This document shows positions 17,791-40,614 of a stretch of DNA of 64,000 nt, piece after piece. Both the position numbers and the translations under genes were made by a program. The stretch's first letter is position 1; the number at the start of each line of letters is the position of its first letter. This DNA is from Sphingobacteriales bacterium 50-39 (GTDB lineage Bacteria; Bacteroidota; Bacteroidia; Chitinophagales; Chitinophagaceae), in NCBI GenBank assembly GCA_001898505.1, contig MKTZ01000001.1:124001-188000 (forward strand), in the 5' to 3' direction. The notes below the pieces were generated by a model. That model ran no database searches. It worked only from the letters and a program-made list of their open reading frames with translations, and was not told the DNA's origin.

Positions 17791-19006
17791 ATGATGAGCA
17801 GGGCCTTTGTCATATTTTTCTTGATTGCACTTTCTCTTAGGTCCCTTTCACAGAACTGCAGCATCGATATTTTACAAAACGATACAAGTATCTGTCCTGT
17901 AAGTCAGGTCAAATTAAATTCAGTACTGGTCACGAATAATTCGTCGTGCAATACGTACAGCCTGAGTGCTGCATTGCAAAATAACCTTTTAGGTTGGTTC
18001 CCCTTTTGCGGAAATACGGATGATATTGGCCCGCAACACAATAATGCAACGGCATTCGGCCCTCTGACATATGGCCCCGACAGATATGGTAACCCCAACG
18101 CTGCCATTTATTTTACCGGGAATGGCGAATCAGTCCATACAAGTAAAATCGAAAGAACTACAGTAAATTCATTTACCTATGTTACATGGGTAAACACAGC
18201 TAATAGTGTCGTCCTTCCTCAGGAGACGCTAACACCTTATATTGTTCATCCTTCTTTTGGCTGCGATAGCTTTTTTTAACGGGAGATATGCATATATCAC
18301 AAGCGGCTTCGGCAAAGGGTTCAATCCATCCGGGGTAACGGTGCCGTCCAATAATTTTAAAGGGGCAATTGATGATATTAAAATTTACAACAGAGCGCTT
18401 GCTGATGCGGAGATCCTTGAATTATATCAAAAAGATATTTATAAAGTATTATGGAGCACCGGTGATACGGTGCAGCAGATAGGCGTAACGCCAAAACATT
18501 CCTCAAAATATTGGGTGACAGCAACCAATGGGCAAATTTCATGTAGTGATACCGTCAATCTGGCTGTAATTATTCCTCCTCTTATATCTCTTGGCAATGA
18601 TACGACACTCTGCATGGACGATTCTCTCCAGTTAAATGCGCCGGAAATGCCAGGATACTCTTTTTTATGGCAAGATAACAGCACTGGAGACACATACTTC
18701 TTTCACTTTAGGGGTTGATACAAGTTTGTGCAATCATCAGGTTTTAAAGCTGAACCCATCTTTACCTAAAGGCTATTACCTATGGAATACCGGTAGCAGT
18801 TTGCCATCGATGGATGTGACATCCTCAGGTGTTTACTGGCTCCAGGTATCCAGCCAGGGATGCGCAACGAGGCGCAGACCGGATGGGATGGAAAGCGGAA
18901 CTTCCATCCGCAGCCCCAAGGTACCTATGTTTGGTTTTTATCTTATAAAGATGGTTTGACGGGAAAGGACGTGCAAAAAAGGGGGACGGTTGTACTAATA
19001 CGGTAG
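17791..19006 (+). pseudogene. remnant of a LamG-domain protein with T9SS-type C-terminal sorting domain
   Basis: Four pieces in three frames make up one decayed gene. Piece 1 (17791-18279): signal peptide (MMSRAFVIFFLIALSLRSLSQ) and the start of a LamG-like lectin domain ending at LPQETLTPYIVHPSFG. Piece 2 (about 18262-18718): the end of LamG (IDDIKIYNRALADAEILELY) and immunoglobulin-like repeats (STGDT; LGNDTTLC). Piece 3 (about 18695-18880): another repeat (LGVDTSLCNHQVLKLNP). Piece 4 (18884-19006): WDGKRNFHPQPQGTYVWFLS and following residues up to VVLIR-stop, the end of a gliding-motility-type (CHU_C-like) sorting domain. The middle of LamG and the front of the sorting domain are missing, so deletions as well as frameshifts have occurred. 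Confidence 0.8.
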
Positions 19007-19134
19007 CCCAGGTTCGTTTGGAGGTGAGATTATGGTCTAAAAATTAGCCATAAACAGCTATTTGTAAAAGCTCCAATTAGCGGGACTTTTACATAACAGG
19101 GAGAACGATCTACCCTGGAATAACAGGATATAAA

Positions 19135-19896
19135 ATGGCATACATTGTCGCTCATCTGCCTCTGGGATACAGGCTTTTTGAAGAAATAAATTACCAGTCG
19201 AATACGGAGCTCATGGACGAAATGACTGCTGTCGCGGCTCCAAGTTATAACGGGACCCGCAGCTTGCTGGAGCGGGAATTTGCGCACAATCATTTCGTTT
19301 ACTTTATCCGGAACAAGGGGCAGGAATTAGTTGCCTTCTTCCTGACGAATTTCGATGAAATCGACAATGAGTTGATCAGCTATATGGGCTTGCTGGCCGT
19401 CGATACACGCTATAAAAATTCGTTCCTGTCCGCGCCCCTGGTGTTCCACCATATCCGCAGGTTGAAAGAGAAGGAATTCCTTTTAGGTCGATCCATACAA
19501 ACTTGGGCCACCACGGCATCCCTTACCATCCTAAAACTCTTCTCTTCCTTTTGCCACTATGAGCCGGCGCTGGACGGATCCTTTACAGAAGAAGGCAAGG
19601 CTATCGCCCGGAAGATCGGCCATTATTATAATCTCACTTCCGACCGGCAAAATCCCTTTGTCGTGAGAAAGCTCGCCTACGAAACCCAATATTCCAAAGA
19701 AGAGAATCTTAGAATGGAGCACGTAGCGCGGCCTAAGAGCGTCAATGTCTTTGAGCAATTCGGGATAGATGAGAAGCTAGGCGACCGACTCATTGTAGTC
19801 GTACGCTCCCTGGATGTCCAAAAATTTCTAAAATGGTCACAAAAGCTGAAACTGGATCCTGGCCATATTCAGCCCATCGCTTGCTTTATAGGATAA
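19135..19896 (+). CDS. unknown cytoplasmic protein
   Basis: 253 residues, function not recognised. No signal or membrane helix. The central part (about 45-140: FVYFIRNKGQELVAFFLTNF, ISYMGLLAVDTRYKNSFLSAPLV) resembles the beta strands and pocket of GNAT acetyltransferases, but a clear acetyl-CoA loop (Q/RxxGxG/A) cannot be pointed out, so this is only a suggestion. It stands just upstream of a PAS-LuxR regulator on the same strand (36 bases), so the two may form a unit. Confidence 0.7.
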   Translation: MAYIVAHLPLGYRLFEEINYQSNTELMDEMTAVAAPSYNGTRSLLEREFAHNHFVYFIRNKGQELVAFFLTNFDEIDNELISYMGLLAVDTRYKNSFLSAPLVFHHIRRLKEKEFLLGRSIQTWATTASLTILKLFSSFCHYEPALDGSFTEEGKAIARKIGHYYNLTSDRQNPFVVRKLAYETQYSKEENLRMEHVARPKSVNVFEQFGIDEKLGDRLIVVVRSLDVQKFLKWSQKLKLDPGHIQPIACFIG

Positions 19897-19932
19897 GATT
19901 TGCTACCTTCAGAAACAATCTTTTAACACCTC

Positions 19933-20730
19933 ATGCCCCCTAAAAAGATCATTACCTATACCGGATTATTAACCGACATTTATTACCGGCCCAAAGACAT
20001 CGGCAGCCGGGAAGTGCTACAGTTATTGAGGCAGGCCGAAGCGATACCCCGGCAATTATTACCTTTTAAAGGCATTATTCATTTAATTGATTATACTCAG
20101 CGCAGGCATGTGGCGCTAAGCGGAGAAGCCAAAAATATGATTGGTTTCGATGCCAGAGAAGTCATTGAAAATGGATTGGAATTCGTTATAAGTATCTTTC
20201 ACAAAGATGATTTTAAGATTTATAATGAAAGCATCTTCGGACAAGCCATTGAATTTTTGCGTCGAACACCTCATGAAGACCACAGCCAGTATGTTTTTAC
20301 TTATTCCTATAGGATGAAAAGAGCAGACGGGAAATGGATACAAATTTACCAGCAGGGAAGCTATGTTACGGACCCCAAGACCCGGCTGCCTCTTTATGGC
20401 ATTGCTTTGGTCACGGACATCTCACCACTGAAAAAGGGCAGTTCCATGATCTTTTCCATCGACAAGAAGAAAAATGAAGACAGCCGATTTGACTATGACA
20501 ATATTCTTACCCATAATTATTATCCGGATCCCGAAGAATCGAGACTAACGGGCCGGGAACGAGAAATACTCGGACGCCTTGCTGATGGGCTCAGCAGTAA
20601 ACAAATTGCAGGCAAGTTGCATTTGAGTGAGAATACCATTGTCAATCATAGAAAGAATATTCTAAGAAAAACAAACACAAAGAACGTGGCTGAATTGATC
20701 CGTTATGCCATCAACAATGGAATTATTTAG
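19933..20730 (+). CDS. PAS-LuxR transcriptional regulator
   Basis: 265 residues. An N-terminal region of about 60 residues is followed by a PAS-like sensor (about 55-175; GFDAREVIENGLEFVISIFHKDD, RMKRADGKWIQIYQQGSYV) and a C-terminal LuxR/GerE helix-turn-helix (about 203-262: LTGREREILGRLADGLSSKQIA, LSENTIVNHRKNI). The layout, PAS then LuxR HTH with no receiver, is common among Bacteroidota sensors responding to an unknown ligand. The neighbouring genes give no clear target. Confidence 0.88.
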   Translation: MPPKKIITYTGLLTDIYYRPKDIGSREVLQLLRQAEAIPRQLLPFKGIIHLIDYTQRRHVALSGEAKNMIGFDAREVIENGLEFVISIFHKDDFKIYNESIFGQAIEFLRRTPHEDHSQYVFTYSYRMKRADGKWIQIYQQGSYVTDPKTRLPLYGIALVTDISPLKKGSSMIFSIDKKKNEDSRFDYDNILTHNYYPDPEESRLTGREREILGRLADGLSSKQIAGKLHLSENTIVNHRKNILRKTNTKNVAELIRYAINNGII

Positions 20731-20768
20731 GCGAGTTTATACGCCAGTGGAGTCAAAATAATGCCGGA

Positions 20769-22061
20769 TTACACATCGTGTGACGTGGACTCGTTCTCGT
20801 CCATCTCTAAGCTATTTTCTGGTACGCTCACTTCCCTTATGGCTACGTCTACCGGCTGTATTTCTGGCAGTACATTTCTGGTATAGGCTGATCCCAGCGC
20901 ATGCAACTTCCTTGCCTGTGGTGTAAAACGGCTTTCCAGGGATGCCACGGCATTGTTGAAATGTGTCACGGCAGACTGCAATCCGCCACCGATGTTGCTA
21001 AAATGTTTCAGCAGAACAGTGGTCCGATTATAGAGCTCGATACCTGTCTCTCTTATTTGATCTATGTTTTCCGCTACGCTACGCTGCTGCCATACAAATC
21101 CTACCGTCCGGAGCAGCGTTATCAGTGTGGTGGGAGTTGCCACTATGATGTTGTGACGGATGCCTTCTTCGATCAGCGTAGGATCGACCTGGAGTGCGGC
21201 TGCAAAGGAGGATTCAATTTGCATATACAAGATCACATAGTCCGGTGAGCTCGGGAATTGGCTCCAATATCCCTTGGTGCTAAGGTTTTTCAAATGATCT
21301 TTTACGGCTACCGCATGTTGCGTTAAAAACATCTGTCGTTCCGTTTCCTTCTCAGTTTCAAAAGCTTTCATGTAGGCGTCCAGGGGAGTCTTGGAATCGA
21401 CGATGATCGTTTTCTTTTCAGGAAGATTAATGATCATATCAGGTCGAAGCAGGCCTCCTTCTGACTGGACAGTCGCCTGTTCCACAAAATCACAATGCTC
21501 CGTCATCCCTGCATATTCAACTACGCGACGAAGGCCGATCTCCCCATATCTACCCCGTGTACTGCTACTTTTTAATGCACTGATCAGATTTTGCGTTCCT
21601 TTATCCAACTTCTGGGCGCTTACCTGCATGGCTTCCAGCACAGTCTGCATGCTACTGTATGCGCCTTCTCGTTTGATTTCCAATTCGTTGATCTTTGTTT
21701 CCATTTTATCCAGGCTATTCTTTAAAGGGGCTACCAAGCCTTCGATCGCCTTTTCCTTCGTTTCCAATGATCCTTTTGCTTCTATAACTTTTTCATTTAG
21801 CCTGGACTCGGCCAGGGAAACAAATGCATGATTATTCTTTTGCAAAGCATCCGCTGCAAGCGATCCAAATGCTTCGCGCATTTCCTTCTCCGAATTTGCA
21901 TAAAATGCGCTTTGTTCATCAAGTCGCCGTTGAAGCCCGTCGAGGTTACCTTGGGCGAGGGCTAGCTTGGCTGTCCAACGAGCTTTGACGATCTGCCAGG
22001 CAAAAAGGGCGCCTAGAAGAAAAGCTACTACAGTAATCAGGATCATCTCAAACGTGCTCAT
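20769..22061 (-). CDS. rmuC: DNA recombination protein RmuC
   Basis: 430 residues. One N-terminal membrane helix (MILITVVAFLLGALFAWQI), a long coiled coil (about 30-170), then the RmuC nuclease-like domain (about 190-400) with RGRYGEIGLRRVVEYAGM, DMIINLPEKKTIIVDSKTPLDAY and LNKGYWSQF-like residues near VKDHLKNLSTKGYW. RmuC limits inversion at short inverted repeats and belongs to the restriction-endonuclease-like superfamily; DSK in VDSKTPL is part of the predicted active site. The acidic tail (MDENESTSHDV) is variable in the family. Confidence 0.93.
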   Translation of the reverse strand: MSTFEMILITVVAFLLGALFAWQIVKARWTAKLALAQGNLDGLQRRLDEQSAFYANSEKEMREAFGSLAADALQKNNHAFVSLAESRLNEKVIEAKGSLETKEKAIEGLVAPLKNSLDKMETKINELEIKREGAYSSMQTVLEAMQVSAQKLDKGTQNLISALKSSSTRGRYGEIGLRRVVEYAGMTEHCDFVEQATVQSEGGLLRPDMIINLPEKKTIIVDSKTPLDAYMKAFETEKETERQMFLTQHAVAVKDHLKNLSTKGYWSQFPSSPDYVILYMQIESSFAAALQVDPTLIEEGIRHNIIVATPTTLITLLRTVGFVWQQRSVAENIDQIRETGIELYNRTTVLLKHFSNIGGGLQSAVTHFNNAVASLESRFTPQARKLHALGSAYTRNVLPEIQPVDVAIREVSVPENSLEMDENESTSHDV

Positions 22062-22067
22062 AATCGT

Positions 22068-22277
22068 CTATATCAAGATCAGAAAATAAATCACTCCCCA
22101 TATCAACGTGAAGATCGAGCCAAGGACCAATTCAAACCGGTGTTTTTTTGCATCCCTTGCTATGAGTAGCCTATACAGAGCGTAGAGGATAAAGGGACAA
22201 TCCCGATAGGAAGGAGCATCATGTTTAAGCGATTTTATACGCCTTATAAAGGTACAATAAAAAATTTGTGCTGCCAT
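22068..22277 (-). CDS. possible small membrane protein
   Basis: 69 residues from an ATG at 22277, within a longer open frame. The C-terminal 25 residues form a clear hydrophobic helix (LGSIFTLIWGVIYFLILI) preceded by a basic segment (IARDAKKHRFE). It begins eleven bases after the Gly/His-rich secreted protein and ends just before rmuC (7 bases), so it could be co-transcribed with rmuC. No family recognised; a small annotated gene here is plausible, not certain. Confidence 0.4.
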   Translation of the reverse strand: MAAQIFYCTFIRRIKSLKHDAPSYRDCPFILYALYRLLIARDAKKHRFELVLGSIFTLIWGVIYFLILI

Positions 22278-22287
22278 CCGCTTGGGG

Positions 22288-22494
22288 TTAATGCCTTCTG
22301 CTACTCTTGTGAGTACCGTATCTGTTATAACTACTGGCATTCCGGTAATGACCACCACGGTGCGAAGACCCCGAACCTCCGGCATAGTGACCTCCATGGC
22401 TGGTGGTATGATGTCCCCCACCATAGTGTCTGCGTTGTGCCTGACTGACAAGAGCTATTGAGATCAGAAAGATAAGGAAAAGGATTTTTTTCAT
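22288..22494 (-). CDS. small secreted Gly/His/Ser-rich protein
   Basis: 68 residues: a signal peptide (MKKILFLIFLISIALVSQAQ) and a mature part made of Gly, His, Ser, Tyr and Arg (RRHYGGGHHTTSHGGHY...). This composition could bind metal ions or be disordered. Such short secreted His/Gly-rich proteins are frequent in Chitinophagaceae with no known function. Confidence 0.65.
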   Translation of the reverse strand: MKKILFLIFLISIALVSQAQRRHYGGGHHTTSHGGHYAGGSGSSHRGGHYRNASSYNRYGTHKSSRRH

Positions 22495-22798
22495 AATTGT
22501 TAGATTTTATAGCCACAATATAATCATTGAGGGTTTTTGCTGCAACCGTTAAAACACCTGATTGTATAACTCTTTGTAAATCAAGTGGTATAATCGTGGC
22601 GGACTTTTTGGGGAGCTTTTCCAATCAGGACGAAGCAGAAAGATCTACCTGCCAGGCAGATTGTCCATTTATTACCGTGAAATTTCCTTAGTCACGCTGA
22701 CCGCCGGAACCCGAAAATCCAGCTATTAATGTAACTCCCGCCTGTAGCCGCAATACAATGAGAAAATCCTCGTTTTATTGCCAACCCAACCCCTGACC
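22495..22798. other. intergenic region, no gene seen
   Basis: About 300 bases between two divergent secreted-protein genes. No open frame with coding character and no clear RNA structure. Promoters for both flanking genes should lie here, but I cannot point to a convincing -33/-7 pair. Confidence 0.5.
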
Positions 22799-23194
22799 AT
22801 GAAATATTGGACCCTCCTGCTGTTTTCCTTCCTTACGATCTCCTCCTCTGCCCAGGTCATCAAAATGAGATGTACCCGGACCGTCTTGTCTCACTGGGAA
22901 TCCGACCATTATGAACGGGTGGACGAGCACGAGACCAATTTTCTGGTAGTCGTCGATCATAAGAACGGTAGGATCACCATATACGCTAATGAAGAGACCA
23001 GCTATGACATTGTAAAGGTCGACAGGCAATGGGTGGACGAAAGGGGAGTGGCCTGGATAAATTTCCAGGCCGTTGATGAGGACGGGAAAAAAAGGACCGT
23101 TTCATTCGCCGCCAACAGTACAGAAAATGTCTATTCGCTGGGCATCGCAAAAGGAGAGTACATGCTTTTGTATCAGATGAAAAGAGACGAATAA
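22799..23194 (+). CDS. secreted unknown protein
   Basis: 131 residues from ATG 22799 (the frame opens earlier, but this start gives a signal peptide: MKYWTLLLFSFLTISSSAQ). The mature part is rich in beta strands and ends in YMLLYQMKRDE. It reads like a single small beta domain (RITIYANEETSYDIVKV). No family recognised. Confidence 0.7.
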   Translation: MKYWTLLLFSFLTISSSAQVIKMRCTRTVLSHWESDHYERVDEHETNFLVVVDHKNGRITIYANEETSYDIVKVDRQWVDERGVAWINFQAVDEDGKKRTVSFAANSTENVYSLGIAKGEYMLLYQMKRDE

Positions 23195-23395
23195 AAGACA
23201 TATAGCGCATTGGCTATTTTCCTCCATCAGTACCTTTTGAAGGCCTGGGACTGCCGATTTTCATGAGACCAAGATAGAACATTGTTCGTTCAGTCGCAAA
23301 GGGATGGGGATCACCGAGGTATCGGCGTGCGCAGGGAGCTGGGCGGTGACGGGCGAGTTGAACACGGCATCCCGGAAAATGGTTTATATTTGAAC

Positions 23396-24001
23396 ATGAA
23401 CAGATTAATGCTGCTTTTCTTGTTTGTCCTGGGCGTCCTGAGCGGTTCTGCGCAGAAAATAGATGCCAGGGGATATATGGATTCGATAAAAGCTTTCCGG
23501 GCTGACTACATTCAAACCCATGAACTGCTGACCAGTGCGGAGCAAAAGGCCTTATTGCGATTTTATCCGTTAGACCCGAAGTACCGAGTGGTAGCACACT
23601 TTGAAAAATTTACCGACAGCCCTTGGTTTCCGATGGCGACATCGGGAAAAACACCTCAGATCCAGCGTAAATATGGCCGCTTAACCTTTTCGATGCATGA
23701 TACGGTTGTACACCTTACGATCTACCAATCGCAGGCATTGATGCAAAAAGCAGCTACACACGACTATCTTTTCATTCCCTTCACCGATGCGACCAGCGGT
23801 ATCGACAGTTATGGCGGTGGTCGGTACATCGACTGCGCGGTTAACGATATCCGGAGCGGCATCATGGTGCTAGATTTCAATAAAGCGTATAACCCCTATT
23901 GTGCTTACGCGACTGGATACAATTGCCCGATTCCCCCGCGCGAAAATGATCTGTCTGTGGCGATCCAGGCGGGAGAGAAAAATTATGGGAAGCTACATTG
24001 A
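23396..24001 (+). CDS. DUF1684 family secreted protein
   Basis: 201 residues from the ATG at 23396 (the frame is open 114 bases earlier, but this start gives the signal peptide MNRLMLLFLFVLGVLSGSAQ). It has the DUF1684 features: YIQTHELL near the start, DATSGIDSYGGGRYIDC, LDFNKAYNPYCAY and the end motif CPIPPRENDLSVAIQAGEK. DUF1684 proteins are secreted or lipid-linked and of unknown role. Intact, unlike the sequence immediately after it. Confidence 0.88.
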   Translation: MNRLMLLFLFVLGVLSGSAQKIDARGYMDSIKAFRADYIQTHELLTSAEQKALLRFYPLDPKYRVVAHFEKFTDSPWFPMATSGKTPQIQRKYGRLTFSMHDTVVHLTIYQSQALMQKAATHDYLFIPFTDATSGIDSYGGGRYIDCAVNDIRSGIMVLDFNKAYNPYCAYATGYNCPIPPRENDLSVAIQAGEKNYGKLH

Positions 24002-24031
24002 CGAAGGCCGGACCCGTCCTGCACCAAAATG

Positions 24032-24205
24032 CCGGGCGCGTGCTTTTTTAGGGATTATGTCCCGGGCGCCGAAGCGTATGAACATGTCCGTGATAAAGAG
24101 ATCCAATCTTTAAGAAAGAATATGGAAAGATTTGTAACCAGCATGGAAGAGATCGGCATCCCCTTCTCTATACATGACAATACCGAGCCATGGAGTAAAG
24201 AACAC
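24032..24205 (+). pseudogene. fragment of an unrecognised gene
   Basis: An open frame with protein-like composition (FFRDYVPGAEAYEHVRDKEI, MERFVTSMEEIGIPFSIHDN) starts just after the DUF1684 stop and lies opposite the end of the lipocalin-like gene. The last residues before the stop at 24241 correspond to DNA that belongs to the lipocalin gene. It is therefore probably a cut-off piece of another gene, joined at about 24205. The family is not recognised. Confidence 0.4.
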
Positions 24206-24550
24206 CCTTGGTTGTGTCTGTCCGGTCCAGTTTGGAAATAGTGAAACGGACATGGAATGCGTCATCGTTTGTTTTTCTTCATCCACCTGGAAAGGGCCCG
24301 AATAGGCGATATAGGTCGAAGCCTCTTGTTTGTATTCCGCATCCGTTCCATCAAACCAGTCCCCAGATTCAAAGTTTTTTCGATTCTGCTGCATCAATTG
24401 CGCGGACATATATCCATCCGGTGTGTACATTATAATGCCCATTGGTTTGTCACTCAACGGGTGGAACGGAGCAGACCCATCGACAGGCCTTTCTTCATAG
24501 GATTCCAATTTCCATGCACCGATCAACTGATCCCGTAGTGTTATTGACAT
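24110..24550 (-). CDS. lipocalin-like domain protein, C-terminus replaced
   Basis: 146 residues. The first 115 match the lipocalin-like type (PF13924-like) with LIGAWKLESYEERPVDGSAP, MGIIMYTPDGYMSAQLM, ASTYIAYSGPFQVDEEKQ and VSLFPNWTGQTQPR. The family normally goes on for about 30 residues with a DGDxLxLST strand; here it is replaced by an unrelated tail (VFFTPWLGIVMYREG...) read antisense to another gene piece. The domain therefore lacks its last strands. It follows the SDR gene on the same strand (29 bases). Confidence 0.7.
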   Translation of the reverse strand: MSITLRDQLIGAWKLESYEERPVDGSAPFHPLSDKPMGIIMYTPDGYMSAQLMQQNRKNFESGDWFDGTDAEYKQEASTYIAYSGPFQVDEEKQTMTHSMSVSLFPNWTGQTQPRVFFTPWLGIVMYREGDADLFHAGYKSFHILS

Positions 24551-24579
24551 AGCTTGTCATTTAAATGGTTGAGAGCGGT

Positions 24580-25341
24580 TTAAGAGGCTTTTTGGGTATC
24601 TCCGTCAATTGGAATGATCTGTCCTGAGATCGATTTGGCGCTGTTCGATGCCAGGAACACAGCCAGTGCTGCTATATCTTCGGGGTCCACAAATGATTTA
24701 ATGGATTGGATCGATAACGCGTTCCGCCGTTCGGCCTCGACGGTAGTGTGGTGCGCTTCTGCTCCGCCTTTCAACACGTTTTCTATTCTGGCGCCGGCCA
24801 CCGCTCCGGGCAGGATCGCATTTGCACGAATGCCATATTTGCCCAGTTCTATGGAAAGTGTTTTGGTGAAGCCGACAATGCCCCATTTTGCTGTTGAATA
24901 AGGACTCCTGTTCTCATATCCAAATCGTCCGGCGACGGAAGACATGTTAATGATCACGCCAGCGGAAGATTTCTTTAAATAGGGGATCGCCATCCGGGTC
25001 GTGTTAAACGTGCCATTGATGTCCACCTGGATGACTTTTTCCCATTCATCTGGCTTAATTTCTTCCACTGGTGCCGTGGGGCCCGAAATGCCTGCGTTAT
25101 TAACAAGCACGTCCAATCCTCCCATTGTGTCAGCACAATACGTAACCATTGCCTCAATGTCACTTCGCTTGGAAATATCACATACATTAATGACGATGTC
25201 GGGTACTTGCTTTTTAAGCGCGGTTAATCCCTTTTCATCTATATCGCAAACAGACACTTTTGCGTCTGTCGCAGAGAAAGATTTCACAATTTCCAGACCG
25301 ATGCCCGAGGCGCCGGCTGTAACCAGGACTTTTTGGTTCAT
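24580..25341 (-). CDS. short-chain dehydrogenase/reductase
   Basis: 253 residues, classical SDR. NAD(P) loop TAGASGIGLEI (the Gly-rich motif with Ala in place of the first Gly), acidic residue CDID at about 35 suggesting NAD preference, NNAG at about 87-90, catalytic Ser in NMSSVAGR, YxxxK as YSTAK (about 153-157), and IIPIDGD near the C-terminus. Oxidises or reduces an unknown alcohol or ketone. It lies just upstream of the lipocalin-like gene and downstream of the NDH-2 remnant. Confidence 0.9.
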   Translation of the reverse strand: MNQKVLVTAGASGIGLEIVKSFSATDAKVSVCDIDEKGLTALKKQVPDIVINVCDISKRSDIEAMVTYCADTMGGLDVLVNNAGISGPTAPVEEIKPDEWEKVIQVDINGTFNTTRMAIPYLKKSSAGVIINMSSVAGRFGYENRSPYSTAKWGIVGFTKTLSIELGKYGIRANAILPGAVAGARIENVLKGGAEAHHTTVEAERRNALSIQSIKSFVDPEDIAALAVFLASNSAKSISGQIIPIDGDTQKAS

Positions 25342-25360
25342 AGCTGAAATTTAAAAGAAT

Positions 25361-26000
25361 TCAAATCGGGTTATTGGCATTTCTTTTCTCATTGTCAGGT
25401 TTTAAGATCAATCGTAGTGACTGATCCTTTGTAAAAAATGCAACGGCCCATCGAAACAACGTAGATACCTTATTTTCGACGTTCACCAAGGAGAGCAGAT
25501 GCACCGCCAGCCACATCAGCCAGGCGAGAGATCCGTGAAGATGCATTTCGGGTTTGGGAAGATCTGCGACAGCCTTGCCCCTACCGATGATGGCCATGCT
25601 GCCTCTGTCGTGGTAGATAAACGGCTTTAAAGGCTTTTTGTCGGCCATAGCTTTAAACGTATCGGCCAGGTGTTTTCCCTGCTGAATGGCTACCTGCGCG
25701 AGTTGCGGATGCCCGTTTGGGAAACCGGGATCGGTCGTTTGAAGGCTGGTGTCCCCGATCGCATAGACATCAGTAAGACCTTGAACGGCATTGTGTTCGT
25801 TGACAAATAGCCTTCTGCCCCTGCCATAGCTTTCCTTCGGGATACCCTGGAACACCTTTGACGTCACGCCGGCCGTCCAGATCAGCAATTTGGTGGGGAT
25901 TTTCTCACCATCGGCAAATACTACCGCATCATCCACGTAATCTTTTGCACGCTTGTTTAATTTCACGATCACGTTCATCCGGGTTAATTTTTCCATGGCA
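25361..26000 (-). pseudogene. type II NADH dehydrogenase, N-terminal half missing
   Basis: The last 213 residues of the open frame are a good match to Bacteroidota NDH-2: VIVKLNKRAKDYVDDAVVF, PTKLLIWTAGV, LTDVYAIGDTSLQTTDP (FAD-binding), GHPQLAQVAIQQGKHLADTF and a hydrophobic C-terminal membrane anchor. The N-terminal FAD-binding GxGxxG part (about 200 residues) is absent. Upstream of about 26000 the frame runs antisense through an acyl-CoA dehydrogenase fragment and a different gene, giving a nonsense N-terminus. The open frame runs to 26311 but is not a functional NDH-2. Confidence 0.8.
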
Positions 26001-26002
26001 AA

Positions 26003-26116
26003 GCGGGGTCCGATGCGACAAGCCAGCGGACAACGGCCGAAGACAAAGGAGACCACTATATCCTGAATGGAACGAAGAACTGGATCACCAATGGTAAAAC
26101 GGCCGCCACCAACGGC
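26003..26116 (+). pseudogene. acyl-CoA dehydrogenase fragment (about 38 codons)
   Basis: On the plus strand, [16 protein letters not shown] and [20 protein letters not shown] are in one frame (gcg at 26003, onward). This is the substrate/FAD loop of acyl-CoA dehydrogenases. Nothing upstream or downstream continues the enzyme. It sits between the cut NDH-2 and the gene at 26136, so it is an island left between two breakpoints. Confidence 0.75.
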
Positions 26117-26135
26117 CCGCCATTTCCGGCGGGCT

Positions 26136-32057: not shown

Positions 32058-32060
32058 ATA

Positions 32061-32576: not shown

Positions 32577-32752
32577 GCCAGTAAGGATACGAAAAAAAGG
32601 CAGCAGGCTTGTTTTATGTTGATGTTTTGACAGCTTATCGGCAGCTTCCGTTGAGCAGGGCTGAACAAAAGGATCAGACCTTTCGCAAAGAAAGGCCTGA
32701 TCATCAGCGACGCCGGCGGTCTGGAAGCGCTGGCAATACAAGAAAAGACGAT

Positions 32753-33691
32753 CTACGGAAGAAGGACCTGGTCAATGACGTGCACAACACCGTTGGTCGT
32801 TACGATATTGGCTGCCATGACGGTCGAGGGAGTGCTGTTCCCATTTCCTTTCACCTGTACACTGCTCCCCACAAGAATGTGGACGGTTTCCCCATTGACG
32901 GTCGCGGGCATGCTGTTATTGACAAGATCCGACGAAAAAATCCGCCCGGCAATGACATGGTAGGTGAGGATTTTCGTCAACGTATTCGGATCCGCGGCAT
33001 TAATGGCCGCTGAATTGACGAACCCGGCGTTGATGAAGGCCTGGTTGGTGGGCGCGAAGACTGTAAAGGGCCCTGTGCCGGAAAGCACCGCGGCCACATT
33101 CGTACTTCCCTGGCTGGCGCGCAGGACGGCAGTCACCAACAGGCTGAGATTCGGATTGGCTATCGCCGTTTGTACGATAGTACCCGTCGCCGGCAGCAGA
33201 ACAGCCGAAATGTCATGGATCACGCCGTTGGTGCACAGGATATCAGCCTTGGTGACGGGTACGCCGTTGATGAACACCTGGCCGCTTGGTGTTCGGGTGG
33301 CAAATGCGGGCTGACCATTCAGCGTATTTACAGGGGTATTGGTAGCCTGGGGGATATCCGCCGCCTTTACCTGCCCACCGAGTACATGGTAGAGCAGGAT
33401 GGCCTTCAGCGTGGAATCGGGTAGGGTAGAAAGAGCCGAGGTAGAACTAAGGCCCAATGCCGCGAAAGCCTTGTTGTCTGGGGCGAATACAGTAAAATCC
33501 TCTTCGGATTTGCTGTCGAGGGTGGCTTTCAGCCCTTCTTTATTGATCGCCGCCACCAGGATGGAATAAGAAGGGTCGGCAGCCAGCGTAGCATAGATGC
33601 TGCCGTGATGATTGAGATTGGATTTCCTGCAGGCAGTGCCCAATAGGCCAAATGCCAGGAGAATTGCCGCGAAAGTTTTGATGGATTTCAT
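32753..33691 (-). CDS. fasciclin (FAS1) lipoprotein, two domains
   Basis: 312 residues from ATG 33691 (the frame is open to 33973, but this start gives a lipoprotein signal ending LLGTAC). Two FAS1 domains (about 45-180 and 185-312) with the family motifs FTVFAPDNKAFAAL / FTVFAPTNQAFINAG and TNGVVHVIDQVLLP at the very end. FAS1 proteins mediate adhesion or matrix contact. A second single-domain FAS1 protein lies at 37359. It is divergent from the broken regulator gene at 33906. Confidence 0.88.
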   Translation of the reverse strand: MKSIKTFAAILLAFGLLGTACRKSNLNHHGSIYATLAADPSYSILVAAINKEGLKATLDSKSEEDFTVFAPDNKAFAALGLSSTSALSTLPDSTLKAILLYHVLGGQVKAADIPQATNTPVNTLNGQPAFATRTPSGQVFINGVPVTKADILCTNGVIHDISAVLLPATGTIVQTAIANPNLSLLVTAVLRASQGSTNVAAVLSGTGPFTVFAPTNQAFINAGFVNSAAINAADPNTLTKILTYHVIAGRIFSSDLVNNSMPATVNGETVHILVGSSVQVKGNGNSTPSTVMAANIVTTNGVVHVIDQVLLP

Positions 33692-33905
33692 AACATGTTT
33701 TTGGAAATCATAACAAAAAAAAGCGCCTCGATAAATAACCAACGGGCGAATCATCGTCTTTTCAGTATCAATCGTCATTCCTATTGAACTGTTTAGATTT
33801 GAGGTGAGTGTAGCAGAAAATACGTCAACAAATTTCGCCCGTCCCGGCATCAATCGATATGTTTGTCCCATCGGTGCTGACCAATTGTCAGACAAAAGGC
33901 AGATT

Positions 33906-34645
33906 ATGGATACAATTGATACCTTTTCAATGAGGGATGTCGAACGGCTGATGGGAATAAAGGCCCATACCATCCGGATATGGGAGAAACGCTACGGCAT
34001 AGCGGAACCGCGACGCTCGGCGACAAATATCCGCTTTTACAGCAATGAAGAAGTACGTTTGTTGATGACAGTGAGGATGCTCAATGGCTACGGTCATAAG
34101 ATCTCGGCGATCGCGGCAATGTCCCGCGATGAACGGAACCGCCGGCTCGACGAGGCGCTCGAACATAAGCCCGTCCCGGGGCAGGCGGAAGAGGCGCTGA
34201 TCGTAAGTCTGCTGGAGGCGGACGAATGGCGGTTCGCCAGGGTCTTCTATGCTGAGGTGCATCGAACGATAAGACAAGACCGTCGGTGTTACTATTTTTG
34301 CCCGAACACGAACTGCATGAGCTGGGGTTATTATTCTATAACTATGCATTCCGGGTGCGTGGCTACAGAACCTATTACTTGGGTCAATCGGTGCCCTTCG
34401 ACGGGCTCGAACGGATGCTTCGGCTGGCCTGCCCCGATGTAATCGTCACCGGAATGACAAATCCCATCAACCCGCTTGGTTTCCGCCAATTCTATGAAAA
34501 GCTGCAACAGCTGACCGGTCCGGCTACAATTTATTATACCGGTCCCCAGCCTTCCACGATGAAGACCTACTATAAAAATCTCCGAACCACGGCCCATCTG
34601 ATCCGCTTTCTGCAATCGATCCCCCTGAGGGAAGCACATACATAG
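33906..34645 (+). pseudogene. CarH/MerR-type B12 regulator, internal deletion and frameshift
   Basis: N-terminal part (from ATG 33906): MerR HTH with FSMRDVERLMGIKAHTIRIW and RRSATNIRFYSNEEVRLL, running to FARVFYAEVHR (about 34265), after which the frame goes wrong. The B12-binding C-terminal half continues in another frame from about 34270 (PSVLLFLPEHELHELGLLF, with ExHxxG) to the stop at 34645. Compared with the intact paralogue at 34652-35551, about 55-60 residues are missing, including the whole W-x9-EH helical bundle that caps adenosylcobalamin. So it cannot be a light sensor and is not one reading frame. Confidence 0.82.
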
Positions 34646-34651
34646 GAACCA

Positions 34652-35551
34652 TTAATTTCTCGACGGGTCGGGCCCGTTAAGAACAGCGGTCAAATCCTCC
34701 ACTGTGTGTAGCCATTGAACCCTCCGGTAGTTGGCCGCGTTTGCCGGTCTGGTCGGATTACCTGCTAGGTATATTTTCTTCCCACTGAACGTCAGATCAA
34801 GTTCTTTAAGAAAGGCCAGTATGGGCTTCGAGAGTTCGGATTGAAGGGTAAAGATCAGTATCCGGTCCGCACTGATCTCCTTCACAGCGGCCGCCATCGA
34901 CGCCAGCGGTACATTGGCGCCCAGGTAGACCGCACCATGGCCGGAAAGCCGGATGATATTATAAGCGAGGAGAAGCCCCATTTCATGGAACTCATTTTCA
35001 GGAAGCATCAGCAACCATCGTTCGGCGCTGGGGTCCGGCGCTGGGAGCGCATCCACGAGCGCAAATAATTTCCGTCGCAGCAAATTGCTCACGAAATGCT
35101 CATGCGTGGGAGATATCTTGTCGCATCGCCAAAGGAGCCCTATCCGCTCGAGCATCGGCAACAGAACGTAACGATAGGTATTCTTTAACCGGTATCGAAC
35201 GATGCAATACGCAAGGATCTGTTCGAACCGGGCCTCATCGTAGGTCAAACCCGCCGCGATCAGCTGCGATATGAAGTAATCTTCGGTGGCGTTGGTCCGG
35301 GTGCTGACAATGGATTCCAACAGCTGATGCAGCTTATCGTCCGAAAGCGGCCCTACCTCGGAGGCCCGGTATCCTGCATTTACCAGGCTGACCATGTTCA
35401 GAAGCCGTCTCATTTGGGAACCGTCATAATAACGGGTATTACCCCGTGACCGGGAAGGTGTCAGTGCATTATATCTCGCCTCCCAAGCCCGGATGGTATG
35501 CGGCTTAAGACCGGAGAACCGGCCCAACTGGGAGATGGAAAAGAGATTCAT
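34652..35551 (-). CDS. CarH/LitR-type B12-dependent photoreceptor regulator
   Basis: 299 residues. N-terminal MerR helix-turn-helix (1-70; ISQLGRFSGLKPHTIRAWEARY), then the helical cap (about 90-165) and a Rossmann-like B12-binding domain (about 175-299). It carries the adenosylcobalamin photoreceptor signature W-x9-EH exactly: W141, then nine residues (RCDKISPTH), then E151-H152. ExHxxG (E187, H189, G192) supplies the lower axial histidine. In Thermus and Myxococcus such proteins repress carotenoid genes in the dark, and light breaks the cofactor and releases DNA. The crt genes 5.6 kb away are the expected targets. Confidence 0.9.
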   Translation of the reverse strand: MNLFSISQLGRFSGLKPHTIRAWEARYNALTPSRSRGNTRYYDGSQMRRLLNMVSLVNAGYRASEVGPLSDDKLHQLLESIVSTRTNATEDYFISQLIAAGLTYDEARFEQILAYCIVRYRLKNTYRYVLLPMLERIGLLWRCDKISPTHEHFVSNLLRRKLFALVDALPAPDPSAERWLLMLPENEFHEMGLLLAYNIIRLSGHGAVYLGANVPLASMAAAVKEISADRILIFTLQSELSKPILAFLKELDLTFSGKKIYLAGNPTRPANAANYRRVQWLHTVEDLTAVLNGPDPSRN

Positions 35552-35554
35552 TGT

Positions 35555-35587
35555 TTGTTTAACTATTTAGCAAATTTAGTTAAACAA
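35555..35587. promoter_or_regulatory. perfect inverted repeat before the carH-like start codon
   Basis: TTGTTTAACTA at 35555-35565 and its exact reverse complement TAGTTAAACAA at 35577-35587, separated by 11 bases. The carH start codon ends at 35551, three bases away. The position is right for autoregulation by the CarH-like protein; MerR proteins bind such inverted repeats. Related half-sites (TGTTTAGAT at 33791-33799; ATCTAAACA at 35674-35682) lie near the other regulator gene. Confidence 0.6.
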
Positions 35588-35652
35588 AATGGTCCGACCA
35601 AAAATACAAATTGTTAATAATGAAGTACTAACGATTCATTTCTGTTTAAGGG

Positions 35653-35698
35653 CGTTTCAATTCACGGGCGAATATCTAAACAAATCTCGATTGAAACG
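35653..35698. promoter_or_regulatory. second inverted repeat upstream of carH
   Basis: CGTTTCAAT at 35653-35661 and ATTGAAACG at 35690-35698, a perfect 9+9 pair separated by 28 bases. The spacer includes ATCTAAACA (35674-35682), a half-site variant of the carH-proximal repeat. Possible operator or hairpin in the divergent region between carH and the SDR fragment. Confidence 0.4.
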
Positions 35699-35732
35699 AT
35701 ACCGGTTATTAGATTCCAGTTAAAACCGTCGG

Positions 35733-36125
35733 ATGAAAGTTTGTTTGGTCACAGGGGTCACCCTCGAGCAAGGCCTCGGATTTGCGATCGCCCTTCGCAT
35801 GTATCAGCGGGAATATGCAGTATATCTTGGCGGCCGCCGCGGTGAAAGAGCCGTTGAACTCGGATTATCTATCGACAAATCAGGCTTCTGGGTAAAAGCT
35901 CACACGTTGGACATCACCGATGATACCAGCGTGACGCAATTCCTTGCCCGGGTCCGCGGCGAACAGGGAAAAATCGACGCCTTGATCAACAACGCGGGCG
36001 CTGGGTTTGATGCCGGGGTACATCCTTTGGATGTCAATTTTGCAGACGCCCGCCAGACCTTTGAGACCAATCTTTTCGGCGCATGGCGCATGACCCGGGG
36101 GAGCCAGATTGGGCCCCCGATATAA
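35733..36125 (+). pseudogene. short-chain dehydrogenase, cut before the catalytic residues
   Basis: 130 residues of open frame. Good SDR N-terminus: CLVTGVTLEQGLGFAIALRM (with degenerate Gly motif), LDITDD at about 60-65, INNAGAGF at about 87-94, and TFETNLFGAWRMTR at about 108-121. The Ser and YxxxK catalytic elements, which should follow, are missing. The frame ends ten residues after the join with the alpha/beta hydrolase gene (about 36098-36112). So roughly the last half of the gene is lost. Confidence 0.8.
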
Positions 36126-37072
36126 ATGACGCCAAGTGGGTCGTAGTGGAAAAATTGCAAAGTTATGGTGACAGACCCATCGAAACCCTTACTGCGCCGG
36201 AAGCCCGCAAGAATCATACCCCTGCCGATGCTGTAAAAGATGTTGTGCAGGAGCATCATATCCCTATGCCGGTTTCCCAGGTTGATACAGTAGGAAAAGA
36301 GATACCGGTCACAGGCGGAGGCATCCATGCCAGGATCTATACACCCAAAAATGCCGGTAGCCCAATGCCTGTCATCGTATACTATCATGGAGGAGGATGG
36401 GTGATCGCGGACATCAATACTTATGACGCGTCTGCCAGGGGGCTGGCCGAAAAGACAGGCGCTATTGTGGTTTCTGTTCATTACCGGCAGGGTCCGGAGC
36501 ATAAATTTCCTACGGCCCACCACGATGTTTTCGCAGCCTACCAATGGGTGTTGCAGCATGCCGCTTCCTGGAGGGGCGATCCTAAAAAGGTCGCGTTGGC
36601 AGGCGAAAGTGCAGGAGGTAATCTGGCCTGTAATGTCAGCATAATGGCACGCGATAAAGGCATACAGTCACCGTTATGCCAGGTATTGGTCTATCCCGTC
36701 GCGAACAACGATATGAACAGCGTTTCTTATCAAAAATATGCCAACGCAAAACCTCTTAGCAAATCTATCGTAGCCTGGATGGTCAAAAATTATCTGCCGG
36801 ATATTTCTATGTCGGGCGACCCGCGTATAGCATTGGTAAAAGCCGATTTAAAAGGGCTGCCCCCTACTACGATCATTGGCGCCGAGATCGATCCACTGAT
36901 GACAGAAGGCGAAATGTTACGAGATAAACTAAAGGAAGCCGGTGTCGCTACAGATTATAAACTCTACAATGGGGTGACACATGAGTTTTTCGGCATGGCA
37001 GCCGTAGTCCCCGAGGCAAAGGACGCGCAAAATTACGCCTCCGGCGTTTTGAAAAAGGCTTTCCGAAAATAA
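36083..37072 (+). CDS. alpha/beta hydrolase (esterase/lipase type), N-terminus replaced
   Basis: 329 residues. Hormone-sensitive-lipase-like hydrolase with oxyanion motif YYHGGGWV (about 99-106), nucleophile GESAGG (about 165-170), Asp in AEIDPLMTEGE and His in NGVTHEFFG. A normal homologue would have a signal peptide before APDINDAK; here the first 15 residues come from the dehydrogenase fragment fused upstream (AHDPGEPDWAPD). The enzyme core is complete, but export and proper start are lost. It starts inside the SDR frame. Confidence 0.78.
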   Translation: MAHDPGEPDWAPDINDAKWVVVEKLQSYGDRPIETLTAPEARKNHTPADAVKDVVQEHHIPMPVSQVDTVGKEIPVTGGGIHARIYTPKNAGSPMPVIVYYHGGGWVIADINTYDASARGLAEKTGAIVVSVHYRQGPEHKFPTAHHDVFAAYQWVLQHAASWRGDPKKVALAGESAGGNLACNVSIMARDKGIQSPLCQVLVYPVANNDMNSVSYQKYANAKPLSKSIVAWMVKNYLPDISMSGDPRIALVKADLKGLPPTTIIGAEIDPLMTEGEMLRDKLKEAGVATDYKLYNGVTHEFFGMAAVVPEAKDAQNYASGVLKKAFRK

Positions 37073-37358
37073 AGCAGGGTGAATGATTATGGCTCGAGCG
37101 TGGCGAAACCGTGGCGCTGGATATTTGTTTACCTTTTTTGATCCTTTTTGGCTGACTAATTAGACAGATGAGCATAAATAATACCACGGTCGGCTCTCAT
37201 TTCTAAAGTAACGCCTACAATTGCTATTCCGGCAGGCTGTCAAATGGCAACAATCCAGATGCTCGCTTCTCAGGTCGGGATCAGCGGCTTAAAAAATATT
37301 CTGCCTTGTATAAATCCACAGCATTATTGTTTTCCGTATCTATAGTAAAATTTGAAAA

Positions 37359-37907
37359 ATGAAAAAGCACACTATCGTAGCGCTCATTTTATTCATGTTC
37401 GCTTTTATGACCCGTACATCTGCACAGACAAAAATGGTTGGTGGAGCACCCATGTATCCGACAAAGAACATTATTGAGAACGCCATGAACTCCAAGGATC
37501 ATACTACACTGGTAGCCGCCGTCAAAGCGGCCGGACTTGTGCAAACCTTGGAAGGGGAAGGGCCTTTTACAGTATTTGCGCCGACAAATGAGGCTTTTAA
37601 AAAGCTGCCAGCCGGAACAGTCGACAATCTTTTAAAGCCAGAGAATAAAGCTACCCTCACCAAAATACTCACCTATCACGTTGTATCGGGCAGGATAACC
37701 GCAGCCGATCTTATGGACATGGTGAAAAGAGGAATGGGCAAGGCCGCCCTTGCAACCGTCCAGGGTGGTAAACTAACAGTCATGCAGGATGGAAAGGAAC
37801 TTTACCTGGTGGATGAAAAGGGAGGAAAATCCCGGATCACTATATCCGATGTTTTTCAGAGTAATGGTGTTATCCATGTAGTTAACACCGTCCTATTGCC
37901 AAATTGA
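37359..37907 (+). CDS. fasciclin (FAS1) domain secreted protein
   Basis: 182 residues. Signal peptide (MKKHTIVALILFMFAFMTRTSAQ) and one FAS1 domain (about 40-182): FTVFAPTNEAFKKLPAGTVD, LTKILTYHVVSGRITAADL, NGVIHVVNTVLLP at the end. Secreted adhesion-type protein; paralogue of the lipoprotein at 32753. Preceded by a 285-base gap with no gene seen. Confidence 0.9.
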   Translation: MKKHTIVALILFMFAFMTRTSAQTKMVGGAPMYPTKNIIENAMNSKDHTTLVAAVKAAGLVQTLEGEGPFTVFAPTNEAFKKLPAGTVDNLLKPENKATLTKILTYHVVSGRITAADLMDMVKRGMGKAALATVQGGKLTVMQDGKELYLVDEKGGKSRITISDVFQSNGVIHVVNTVLLPN

Positions 37908-38516
37908 TCTATCGTTACCAGATAGTTTAAACCAGGGTCGGTCGGTTTCTACCGGCTGTGTCCTTTTTTTACCTTTAATCTTTTGGATAAAACATTCCAG
38001 TTCTTTTCCGTTTTTGCATCGACACTAGTCAACACCTTTCCCGGTTGCTTGGAAGAGCACTGGGCTTGTACTCCATGCCTGTCTTGTTTGGCCGGAAATA
38101 ATCTATAATTCTGGGAACCCAAATTTTGCCACTATCCTGGAATGTCAATGGAAAGAACTTCTTGCATAACCTTCGGGTGACGGCCGAAAAATGCTGCTTT
38201 GGCATGTAAGCGTGTACCTTATTCCTTGAGGTCATTTATGTCAACCAATAACTTAACCTGAGCGGGCGGAAACTCACCATGGCACAATTTTATAATAAAA
38301 TAGAAAGATTCGGAGTATACACAATAGCGTTACTAGTGCATGTACGAAGAATTAGCCCTTCGATGTAGAATCAGTTTCCGAATACAATGCTGCGGAGCCA
38401 GGGGCTCATTCGGGCTGCAGTCTATTCCCCCAGGGTCTAAAATAATTGGTGGGATCAAATCCGGACTCAAATAAATAACGTATTTAGATTCATTCAAACA
38501 TAAAACATCGATGATC
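37908..38516. other. intergenic region with only a doubtful frame
   Basis: A 68-codon minus-strand frame (38029-38235, KKFFPLTFQDSGKIWVPRII) has no start context, no signal and no recognisable family. The rest is AT-rich non-coding sequence. Possible remnant of a decayed gene. The promoter of the operon beginning at 38517 must be near its right end. Confidence 0.4.
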
Positions 38517-38951
38517 ATGAAAAAAAGAAGAATCATTAAAATACTTCTTTGGACAGGGACAGTCACACTTGGCCTGGTATTAGCCCTGGCCATCCATATT
38601 TATATCGTTATGCGGCCAAAAGCACCCGATGCCAATACCCGGGTCATGGCGCGCATTGATATACATCAACCGCTGACGGACACTGAATCTGACAGGATTA
38701 CTGCATGGCTCTACAGGCAGAAAGGAGTAGATCATGTTATGTGCAATCCGGGTACTTCCATTGTTGTATTCACCTATTCGCCGCTACAGGCCAATGCCAA
38801 TAAAATAGTCGCGAGCTTTAAGACCGATTTGAATTATCCCAAAAGTGTTCGTTATATCCCGACTGAAAAGGATCTCCAAGGAAGTTGTCCTGTTGCATCC
38901 TCTTCTGCCATGTACAAAATATCTACGTCCATTAAGCATCTGATACAATAA
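38517..38951 (+). CDS. unknown membrane-anchored protein before the globin-like gene
   Basis: 144 residues from ATG 38517 (38511 is also ATG in frame). One N-terminal membrane helix (IIKILLWTGTVTLGLVLALAI) and a soluble domain (about 40-120; GVDHVMCNPGTSIVVFTYSP, ANKIVASFKTDLNYPKSVRY) that resembles the small ferredoxin-like fold of heavy-metal-associated domains. Such a fold would be periplasmic. It is 10 bases upstream of the globin-like gene, so they share an operon. Confidence 0.7.
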   Translation: MKKRRIIKILLWTGTVTLGLVLALAIHIYIVMRPKAPDANTRVMARIDIHQPLTDTESDRITAWLYRQKGVDHVMCNPGTSIVVFTYSPLQANANKIVASFKTDLNYPKSVRYIPTEKDLQGSCPVASSSAMYKISTSIKHLIQ

Positions 38952-38961
38952 ATACAAACAC

Positions 38962-39525
38962 ATGAAAGCAGTAAAGTTTTTATCTCTATTAACATTGACA
39001 GCAGTAGCAGGTTTGACAGTTCCTTCATGCAGCAAGAGTAAGAGCAGCACGCCTCCTAAACCCACTTTGTACGATTCGCTGGGCGGTACAGTAATGGTTT
39101 CTGACCCCGCTCATTCCGGCACCATGATCGAAAAAGGCCGGTTGCTGATCCGTAATATAGTGGACAGCACTATTTTTGTGATCGCCGGGGATACCGCTAT
39201 TAACGGCCATTTCACTACACTTTTATCAGAGGTCGGGTCTGGCAACTTCAGCGGGTTCCAGACATTAAGTAAAAATCTTACAGATTTTGTTGCTGTAGGC
39301 ACGGGTGCTAAAGATTATACCTATACTGGCAAATCCATGGTAGCTGCCCATGACCCGGCACAGAACCCCAGGATGAACGGCAAGGCAGATAACAGCGATT
39401 TTAATGCATTCGAAACAGACTTGGTTACCGGCGCTGGTAAAGCAGGTGTGCCCTCCAACAACCCTGCATTAATGAGTGTTGCCAAGATAGTGGAGTCATT
39501 GCGGTCACAGGTGGTGCAGCAATAG
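38962..39525 (+). CDS. truncated-haemoglobin-like lipoprotein
   Basis: 187 residues. Lipoprotein signal with lipobox VPSC (MKAVKFLSLLTLTAVAGL...), then TLYDSLGG, the start of group 1 truncated haemoglobins. NLTDFVAVGTGAKDYTYTG and GKSMVAAHDPAQNPRMNG correspond to the family's mid helix and the proximal-histidine helix, where MxAAHD supplies the haem-binding histidine. The loop between helices A and E is longer than usual. Function could be oxygen or NO handling at the cell surface. Confidence 0.7.
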   Translation: MKAVKFLSLLTLTAVAGLTVPSCSKSKSSTPPKPTLYDSLGGTVMVSDPAHSGTMIEKGRLLIRNIVDSTIFVIAGDTAINGHFTTLLSEVGSGNFSGFQTLSKNLTDFVAVGTGAKDYTYTGKSMVAAHDPAQNPRMNGKADNSDFNAFETDLVTGAGKAGVPSNNPALMSVAKIVESLRSQVVQQ

Positions 39526-40065
39526 CAATTCCTTATTGCCCCACTCGGTAAGGCAAACTGAAACACAACAATCTTCGTATATTCGGTCTGATATAAACAC
39601 CGCTTGGTTGGCTAACCCTACCGGGCGGCTGTTTAGTCATAGATGCGTGCCGTGTAGGCTTGGATTTGCAATTGGACTAAGGATGTCGCTTTCATTTTTG
39701 TATTTTTTCTGATAAGTGAGGGAAAATCGCCAAATTATCGACTCATTAATGCTTGGCTTATGCAAGACAGTATTCTGTATACAAATCGAATCAAACCAAT
39801 AGCCTCAATATGGGTTTACAGCTTAATAAAAATAGATTAAGAAGGTTTATTGGGTCAAATTTCTAATGGAGACCAACTGAAATATTTCATTCATATTTTG
39901 TCGCGGAAGGATCATTTATGCTATGGAACATTCACAAAAAAGGTATTGTACTGATGAGCAATATATCCGGGTCGGCGCTTACTATTTTTCTTCCTGCACA
40001 TTTTAGCAAGAACATGGCAGCTGTCGTCTATTTCCCTGGGGTGGTTATTGGTTCATCTGAAATCA
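39526..40065. other. intergenic region with no supported gene
   Basis: About 540 bases. The longest frame (39918-40115, 65 codons plus strand) has no recognisable family and overlaps the end of the chimeric response regulator. The sequence is AT-rich and looks like decayed or non-coding DNA. Confidence 0.45.
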
Positions 40066-40614
40066 CTAGTGCTGTAATATCGTTAGCAGCATTTCCTTTG
40101 TTAAAGGCTTCATGATAAAATCCGTGATCGCATCTGTCGCCCTTGCCTTACGCTCATCATCCGGGTCCAATGAAGTAGTCAGCATAACAATTTTTATATC
40201 ATCCTGCTTTTTCTCATGCAGGGTCCTGAATCTTTCAAGGAATTCCCTTCCATCCATGCCCGGCATGTTGATATCCAGGAAAATCAGGTCAGGTTTGGGA
40301 TGTGTATTACCTTTGATAATGTATTTACCGGTACCCCTCAGATAGTCGAGCGCTTCATACGCTGTTTCTGCCACATGGATCTCATTGGCGCAATCGAGTT
40401 CTCTCAGTGTCTGCTTCTTACCCCTCCCGTTCTTCCGGTTAGCCTCTTCCCCTTCCTCAATATGCGCCTCCAACTCGCCTTCGAAAGCCCCTTCCGGGAA
40501 CTCCTTCAGCAACGGCGTCAGCACACCTTCCTTGCCCAACAGCGTCTCTCCGCTCTTGATCCGCGTCGCAGCTTGCTTTTTAAATGCCTCAAAATCGAAT
40601 GATTGCTTTTCCAT
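40066..40614 (-). CDS. IS256-type transposase N-terminus fused to a response-regulator receiver
   Basis: 182 residues, chimeric. Residues 1-68 (MEKQSFDFEAFKKQAATRIK, LLGKEGVLTPLLKEF, EGELEAHI and RKNGRGKKQ) are the N-terminal region of IS256/mutator-family transposases of Bacteroidota. From about residue 69 (40410) it becomes a receiver (ELDCANEIHVAETAYEALDY, LIFLDINMPGMDGREF with the phosphoacceptor Asp, VMLTTS, MKPLTKEML). The first about 25 receiver residues, including the acidic pocket, are lost, so phosphorylation by Mg2+ chemistry is unlikely. Transposase domains downstream of the N-terminus are absent. Confidence 0.82.
   Translation of the reverse strand: MEKQSFDFEAFKKQAATRIKSGETLLGKEGVLTPLLKEFPEGAFEGELEAHIEEGEEANRKNGRGKKQTLRELDCANEIHVAETAYEALDYLRGTGKYIIKGNTHPKPDLIFLDINMPGMDGREFLERFRTLHEKKQDDIKIVMLTTSLDPDDERKARATDAITDFIMKPLTKEMLLTILQH

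Follow-up and report, generated by a model that had tools for sequence, protein, structure and literature searches.

The association of gene decay with insertion sequences (IS) is a familiar general idea in bacterial genomics. In the portions of two reports considered here, hotspots of gene turnover are described as lying often at tRNAs, with half of them lacking evidence of mobile elements (Oliveira et al. 2017, PMC5635113), and a deletional bias is described in which pseudogenes are removed by large deletions (Kuo and Ochman 2010, PMC2916853). Here we analyze a window of 64,000 nucleotides from Sphingobacteriales bacterium 50-39 (bases 124001-188000 of contig C1, in a genome of 7.9 Mb in 27 contigs), in which truncated and joined genes crowd around a set of intact carotenoid genes. 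A first-pass annotation of this DNA had raised a deletion hot spot and an assembly artefact as explanations for the damage. We favor a model, to which we give a probability of roughly 0.86, in which the damage is real and clustered, the product of ordinary decay of genes in an accessory interval bounded by a tRNA, and is neither an assembly error nor a new system. This kind of phenomenon is already known, and a pattern that first suggested a hot spot of deletions or a faulty assembly is resolved by mapping the boundary between core and accessory DNA.

The variable interval (5662..42100) extends from the end of a left backbone block at 5661 to a tRNA-Met gene (42101..42175, minus strand), which was identified with ARAGORN and is present in the stretches of nine relatives. 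To the right of the tRNA, the backbone at 42.8-61.3 kb has the same order in seven relatives (G007, G002, G009, G012, G021, G030 and G011), and 17 of the 20 open reading frames (ORFs) on this side are matched, each in three to seven of the seven, with identities of 44-97%; the three outermost ORFs (61.5-64.0 kb) have no match in the stretches compared. Nine relatives were fetched for the tRNA, and in seven this conserved flank lies beside tRNA-Met. To its left, the genes differ in the six relatives listed. Shared content on that side, among the stretches compared, is confined to 0.1-5.7 kb for G002 and G009 and, for G007, to 10.3-13.0 kb and 13.6-20.7 kb; in the latter genome the first shared gene leftward of the tRNA (10297-12954) lies ~21 kb from it. 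None of the 26 ORFs of at least 90 amino acids in 20.7-42.1 kb has a match at 40% identity or more in the stretches of ten relatives. The distance between the two anchors is ~36.4 kb here, ~16.8 kb in G002 and ~4.9 kb in G009, and the genes between the same anchors differ among these three genomes. The comparison with the syntenic region in relatives to which the first-pass annotation had pointed thus reveals a variable interval of differing content between conserved flanks, and both its boundaries and its variability are read directly from the alignments. The flanks had been described as almost clean, and they are: 0 of 16 places to the right of the tRNA are broken and 1 of 8 to the left of the region is flagged, the latter in our reading because its ORF overlaps another frame. 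Judged from sequence, the clean flanks are core genome and the damage sits in the accessory interval.

By our own list, 12 of the 33 loci in 17.7-42.0 kb are broken: a LamG piece, a Usp-like piece, a lipocalin, NDH-2, an acyl-CoA dehydrogenase (ACAD), a LytTR regulator, a second CarH-like gene, a second SDR, a hydrolase, a receiver, a transposase and the remnant of a paralogue. Nine of the 12 are placed by longer homologues, and the lipocalin and the SDR are judged by truncation of the profile match. The other 21 loci include some without a homologue among the sequences compared (19135-19896, 22068-22494, 22778-23194, 40989-41447 and 41529-41795, for example) that are counted as intact solely because they are open frames. 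About eight joins fall within ~17 kb, several of them fusing two unrelated genes, and the cuts look like deletions. At least seven loci of broken architecture had been named previously; all seven look broken, six of them against a longer homologue or profile, and the damage is more extensive than had been stated.

At one join, the window retains the last half of NDH-2 alone (25361..25993, minus strand; residues ~222-424 of a 425-amino-acid relative, L160), a protein of 423-434 amino acids in three relatives; with L160 as query, the other NDH-2 match in the same genome, on contig C20, has 44% identity. Directly adjoining the stub on the opposite strand is a piece of ACAD that has lost both ends (26000..26101, plus strand; ~32-37 codons of 385, against L153 and L154), the full-length protein having 384-385 amino acids in G031 and G030. 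That NDH-2 is joined to an ACAD piece was correctly noted in the first pass, but the ACAD piece spans only ~100 nt, and the adjacent 26136..26423 (minus strand) is an intact small gene. Homologues of this gene, with open frames of 92-135 amino acids, occur in 16 of 58 genomes including its own, all 16 within the same genus; the G031 homologue is 67% identical, and no Pfam family matches. This conservation led us to reject the idea that it is a fragment of ACAD or NDH-2. We likewise rejected the view that this piece was recently captured from the cell's own ACAD, since the copy on C16 (L115) is just 79% identical in DNA over 71 nt and the piece is nearer to the G030 and G031 genes than to that copy (86% versus 78% in protein).

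The joins could in principle be chimeras of assembly or library construction. This would suit a draft assembly in 27 contigs and those joins that place unrelated genes together without a spacer, but several lines of evidence make it highly improbable. As in deletion-type pseudogenes, a part of the gene is missing relative to longer homologues and the missing part did not turn up in the rest of the 7.9 Mb assembly (NDH-2, LytTR and transposase, the three genes tested). In the LytTR and CarH-like genes described below the loss is internal and the two ends keep their proper order; the same stretch also carries a frameshift and the remnant of an IS, which are signs of natural decay; and the right flank, with no broken place among 16, is spared. 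The ACAD remnant differs from L154 over 32 codons at frequencies of 0.06, 0.06 and 0.38 at codon positions 1, 2 and 3, and the transposase remnant from L152 at 0.03, 0.09 and 0.40. Because these mismatches fall mostly at third positions, the two stubs diverged mostly as coding sequence and hence were broken fairly recently. An ACAD remnant of ~100 nt between two other genes, with changes mostly at third positions, is not what a simple mis-join would be expected to produce. Altogether, the proposal of a systematic assembly artefact is not borne out.

The transposase remnant belongs to a second join, at 40.4-40.8 kb. A receiver domain (40066..40410, minus strand) lacks approximately its first 19 residues relative to L163, and codons 1-68 of a 403-codon transposase (against L152) run in frame into it, in agreement with the first pass. 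These codons are part of the left end of an IS256-type element (40411..40672, minus strand). For each of seven IS copies in three relatives, similarity ceases at 40671-40672, and we therefore take the left end as complete and the rest of the element as deleted. The element cuts a frameshifted C-terminal remnant of a paralogue of 40989-41447 (40663..40825, minus strand), which had previously been overlooked. Nothing beyond this one IS256-type end was seen, consistent with the earlier statement that the region holds no intact IS. Elsewhere in the genome, G000:C13:13196-13505 holds what is left of a transposase of the Mutator type, interrupted by an in-frame TGA; its two rows were the only ones that a search of the genome for the family gave.

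At a third join, an SDR that has lost its C-terminal part (35733..36098, plus strand) meets a hydrolase of the Abhydrolase_3 family (36101..37072, plus strand), as had been reported: homology to the SDR stops at position 117 of 195 of the adh_short profile (positions 1-117 matched) where the hydrolase starts, at residue 62 of a 384-amino-acid relative (L151), its first 61 residues missing. Across the genome, 2 of 48 SDR loci look broken, one here and one on C9 (50 match rows with two pairs merged, judged by frame length). The latter, at G000:C9:648903-649348, has an internal gap of ~36 profile positions and a change of frame and is a deletion-type pseudogene.

Further to the left, a lipocalin-like gene (24205..24550, minus strand) has lost its C-terminus, its match to PF13924 covering positions 1-108 of 142 and stopping there, which upholds the cut placed at about 24205. 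Abutting this cut is an internal Usp-like fragment with both ends lost (24050..24202, plus strand), overlooked in the first pass, that matches ~51 codons of an intact 273-amino-acid protein in G012 (L210); the Pfam Usp match on that protein is itself under the cut-off.

In the midst of these stubs lie intact carotenoid genes. For CrtI, CrtB, lycopene cyclase, one CarH-like gene and the gene at 27760-28269, coverage of a relative's ORF is 92-100%, and family matches were found for CrtI, CrtB and lycopene cyclase. The nearest relative for this block is G031 (contigs L103 and L104), at 70-71% DNA identity over two crt matches on C304. Among the matches listed, relatives of the lycopene cyclase are mostly Chitinophagaceae or 'Bacteroidetes' metagenome-assembled genomes, the closest at 68% protein identity. 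An intact CarH-like regulator (34652..35551, minus strand) is 74% identical to an L104 gene. Beside it, a second MerR regulator of this kind (33906..34639, plus strand) has lost its center, with ~57 codons missing relative to L104 and a frameshift near 34262-34280; the gene is intact at L104:4016-4948. The internal deletion previously assigned to a CarH paralogue therefore stands, together with a change of frame. The label does not: the NCBIfam CarH score is 41 bits against a cut-off of 400, and the gene can be called only CarH-like. A photolyase-related gene of G031 (L104:5128-6406), with DPRP and FAD_binding_7 pieces in two frames, looks broken in that genome; the window has just ~230 nt between the two genes that neighbor this locus.

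The LytTR regulator (32064..32576, minus strand) has lost most of its receiver through an in-frame gap of about residues 68-139 of its L104 relative, as the first-pass annotation had seen, and retains a complete DNA-binding domain. In G031 both the LytTR response regulator and the second CarH-like regulator are intact. The LytTR domain is 0.77 identical to its homologue, and its ratio of mean divergence at codon positions 1 and 2 to that at position 3, (p1+p2)/2:p3, is 0.30, compared with 0.28-0.31 for the intact neighbors measured and 0.69 for the receiver stub, the last from 43 codons only; these ratios are pairwise and include the time before the break. The DNA-binding domain is thus as constrained as the intact neighbors measured, and the receiver stub is not. 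This raises the question of whether some stubs are remade genes kept by selection: a receiver-less LytTR protein, a hydrolase without its signal and a transposase-receiver fusion. The LytTR ratio fits such a scenario, as do the open frames of the hydrolase and the fusion, but the hydrolase is without its N-terminal 61 residues, the receiver is without about its first 19, and the ratios also cover the time before the break. We consider this explanation unlikely. The receiver-less LytTR regulator may nonetheless still work, and if so the locus would offer a minor example of regulation rewired through decay. A more specific version, which we regard as doubtful, is that the deletion made a receiver-less, signal-independent DNA-binding protein on which selection still acts, the second CarH-like regulator having been lost. 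If true, deletions in an accessory interval would have rewired light or stress control of the adjoining intact carotenoid genes. A literature search for CarH with LytTR in Bacteroidetes gave nothing on point among the matches listed.

To assess clustering uniformly, ORFs of the relatives were compared with 448 kb of this genome, keeping for each its best-matching place provided that identity reached 50%. With two rows at the ends of fetched pieces dropped, 4 of 18 places in the region are covered to less than 80%, compared with 4 of 74 elsewhere (p=0.04), and 4 of 18 compared with 0 of 74 are covered to less than 60% (p=0.001); the 60% cut-off was picked after viewing the rows and the region itself served as bait for fetching the relatives, such that all p-values are indicative only. 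Two other controls were set aside. Broad homology at 35-40% identity seems to yield many false broken places through domain sharing, and the rows at 50% were preferred; general reference loci gave few matches at 50% identity or more (48 places). A scan of coding potential placed 6 of 21 gene ends wrongly here and 21 of 338 elsewhere (p=0.003), weak support from a method that overlooks small genes and gets three intact ones wrong. The bin C1:140001-160000 (16-36 kb of the window) has a coding fraction of 0.67, the lowest of the 23 sampled.

Several observations weigh against the model of decay in a tRNA-bounded accessory interval. With no rows dropped, the contrast at less than 80% coverage is 4 of 18 versus 6 of 76 (p=0.09), and with the identity threshold lowered to 40% the figures are 4 of 21 versus 10 of 92 (p=0.24). 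Three of the six misplaced gene ends belong to genes intact by homology, and similar damage exists elsewhere in the genome, in the SDR on C9 and in the bin C1:100-120 kb. Of the nine relatives fetched for the tRNA, G028 and G010 did not show the right backbone beside it, and the left anchor (137-5661) was seen only in G002 and G009. No integrase was seen among ten ORFs of 5.8-17.7 kb, the broken loci and some of their neighbors scanned with Pfam, and a search of the window limited to exact matches, at least 12 nt long, to either end of the tRNA gave no further copy; arrival by site-specific insertion is therefore not supported.

As to the bin C1:100001-120000 (L131), its coding fraction is 0.72 with 4 of 15 gene ends misplaced, and it may be another decaying interval.

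The remnant left of the joins discussed above is a LamG-like piece of a secreted-type protein in three frames (17779..18959, plus strand). It had been called a LamG/type IX secretion system (T9SS) remnant, a call we retain on the basis of three overlapping reading frames and a Laminin_G_3 match under the curated cut-off (E=0.00019). No homologue was found among the loci compared. The genes flanking its 2.2-kb interval are adjacent to each other in G007, and the piece was therefore either gained here or lost there. A palindromic 28-nt repeat pair at 17710 and 19041 brackets the remnant and looks to us like two terminators.

How so many losses came to lie together can be explained by where they lie, in accessory DNA with a conserved backbone on one side and tRNA-Met on the other. 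We envision a scenario in which the lineage gains and loses genes beside the tRNA, and unneeded genes are removed piecemeal by separate deletions of ~160 nt to perhaps more than 1 kb. Each deletion would leave stubs, and one spanning two genes would join theirs. At 40.4-40.8 kb, a gene would first have decayed, losing its N-terminus and acquiring a frameshift, an IS256-type element would then have inserted into its end, and a later deletion would have taken the rest of the IS together with the start of the receiver gene. Genes that are still useful, namely CrtI, CrtB, lycopene cyclase, one CarH-like regulator and the fasciclins, have stayed intact. We infer the neutral cause, the acquisition of genes and this order of events from the losses, which are themselves seen directly against homologues. 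Alternatively, a local feature could raise the deletion rate independently of selection. Some eight joins in ~17 kb, and content that varies among relatives too, are what a true mutational hot spot would give, but relaxed selection on accessory genes predicts the identical pattern, no repeat links the joins among the repeats listed (the best 20 of 36 direct families and 25 of 42 inverted pairs), and the carotenoid genes within the interval are untouched, all of which leaves a hot spot of this kind quite improbable. Of the deletion hot spot first proposed, the real deletions hold, as do the clustered losses as a description; the data neither demonstrate a locally elevated deletion rate nor require one.

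Gene decay in an accessory interval has a practical consequence, that chimeric ORFs such as transposase-receiver, SDR-hydrolase and NDH-2-ACAD should not be taken as new domain fusions. It also sets this locus among known systems. The truncated IS256-type end at one join is reminiscent of IS-associated decay, from which the locus differs in that only one of the ~8 joins lies in an IS. As in the deletion-driven decay of pseudogenes set out in the portion of Kuo and Ochman considered here (PMC2916853), unneeded genes are lost via deletions able to span neighbors, although the remnants here are mostly truncations and fusions. The turnover hotspots between core genes, so far as that part of Oliveira et al. 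(PMC5635113) describes them, differ from our case, in which no integrase was seen and which compares distant species of one genus through the tRNA neighborhoods of nine relatives, with the left anchor in two. The two nevertheless share conserved bounds, varying content, a tRNA at one edge and, of mobile elements, just a remnant.

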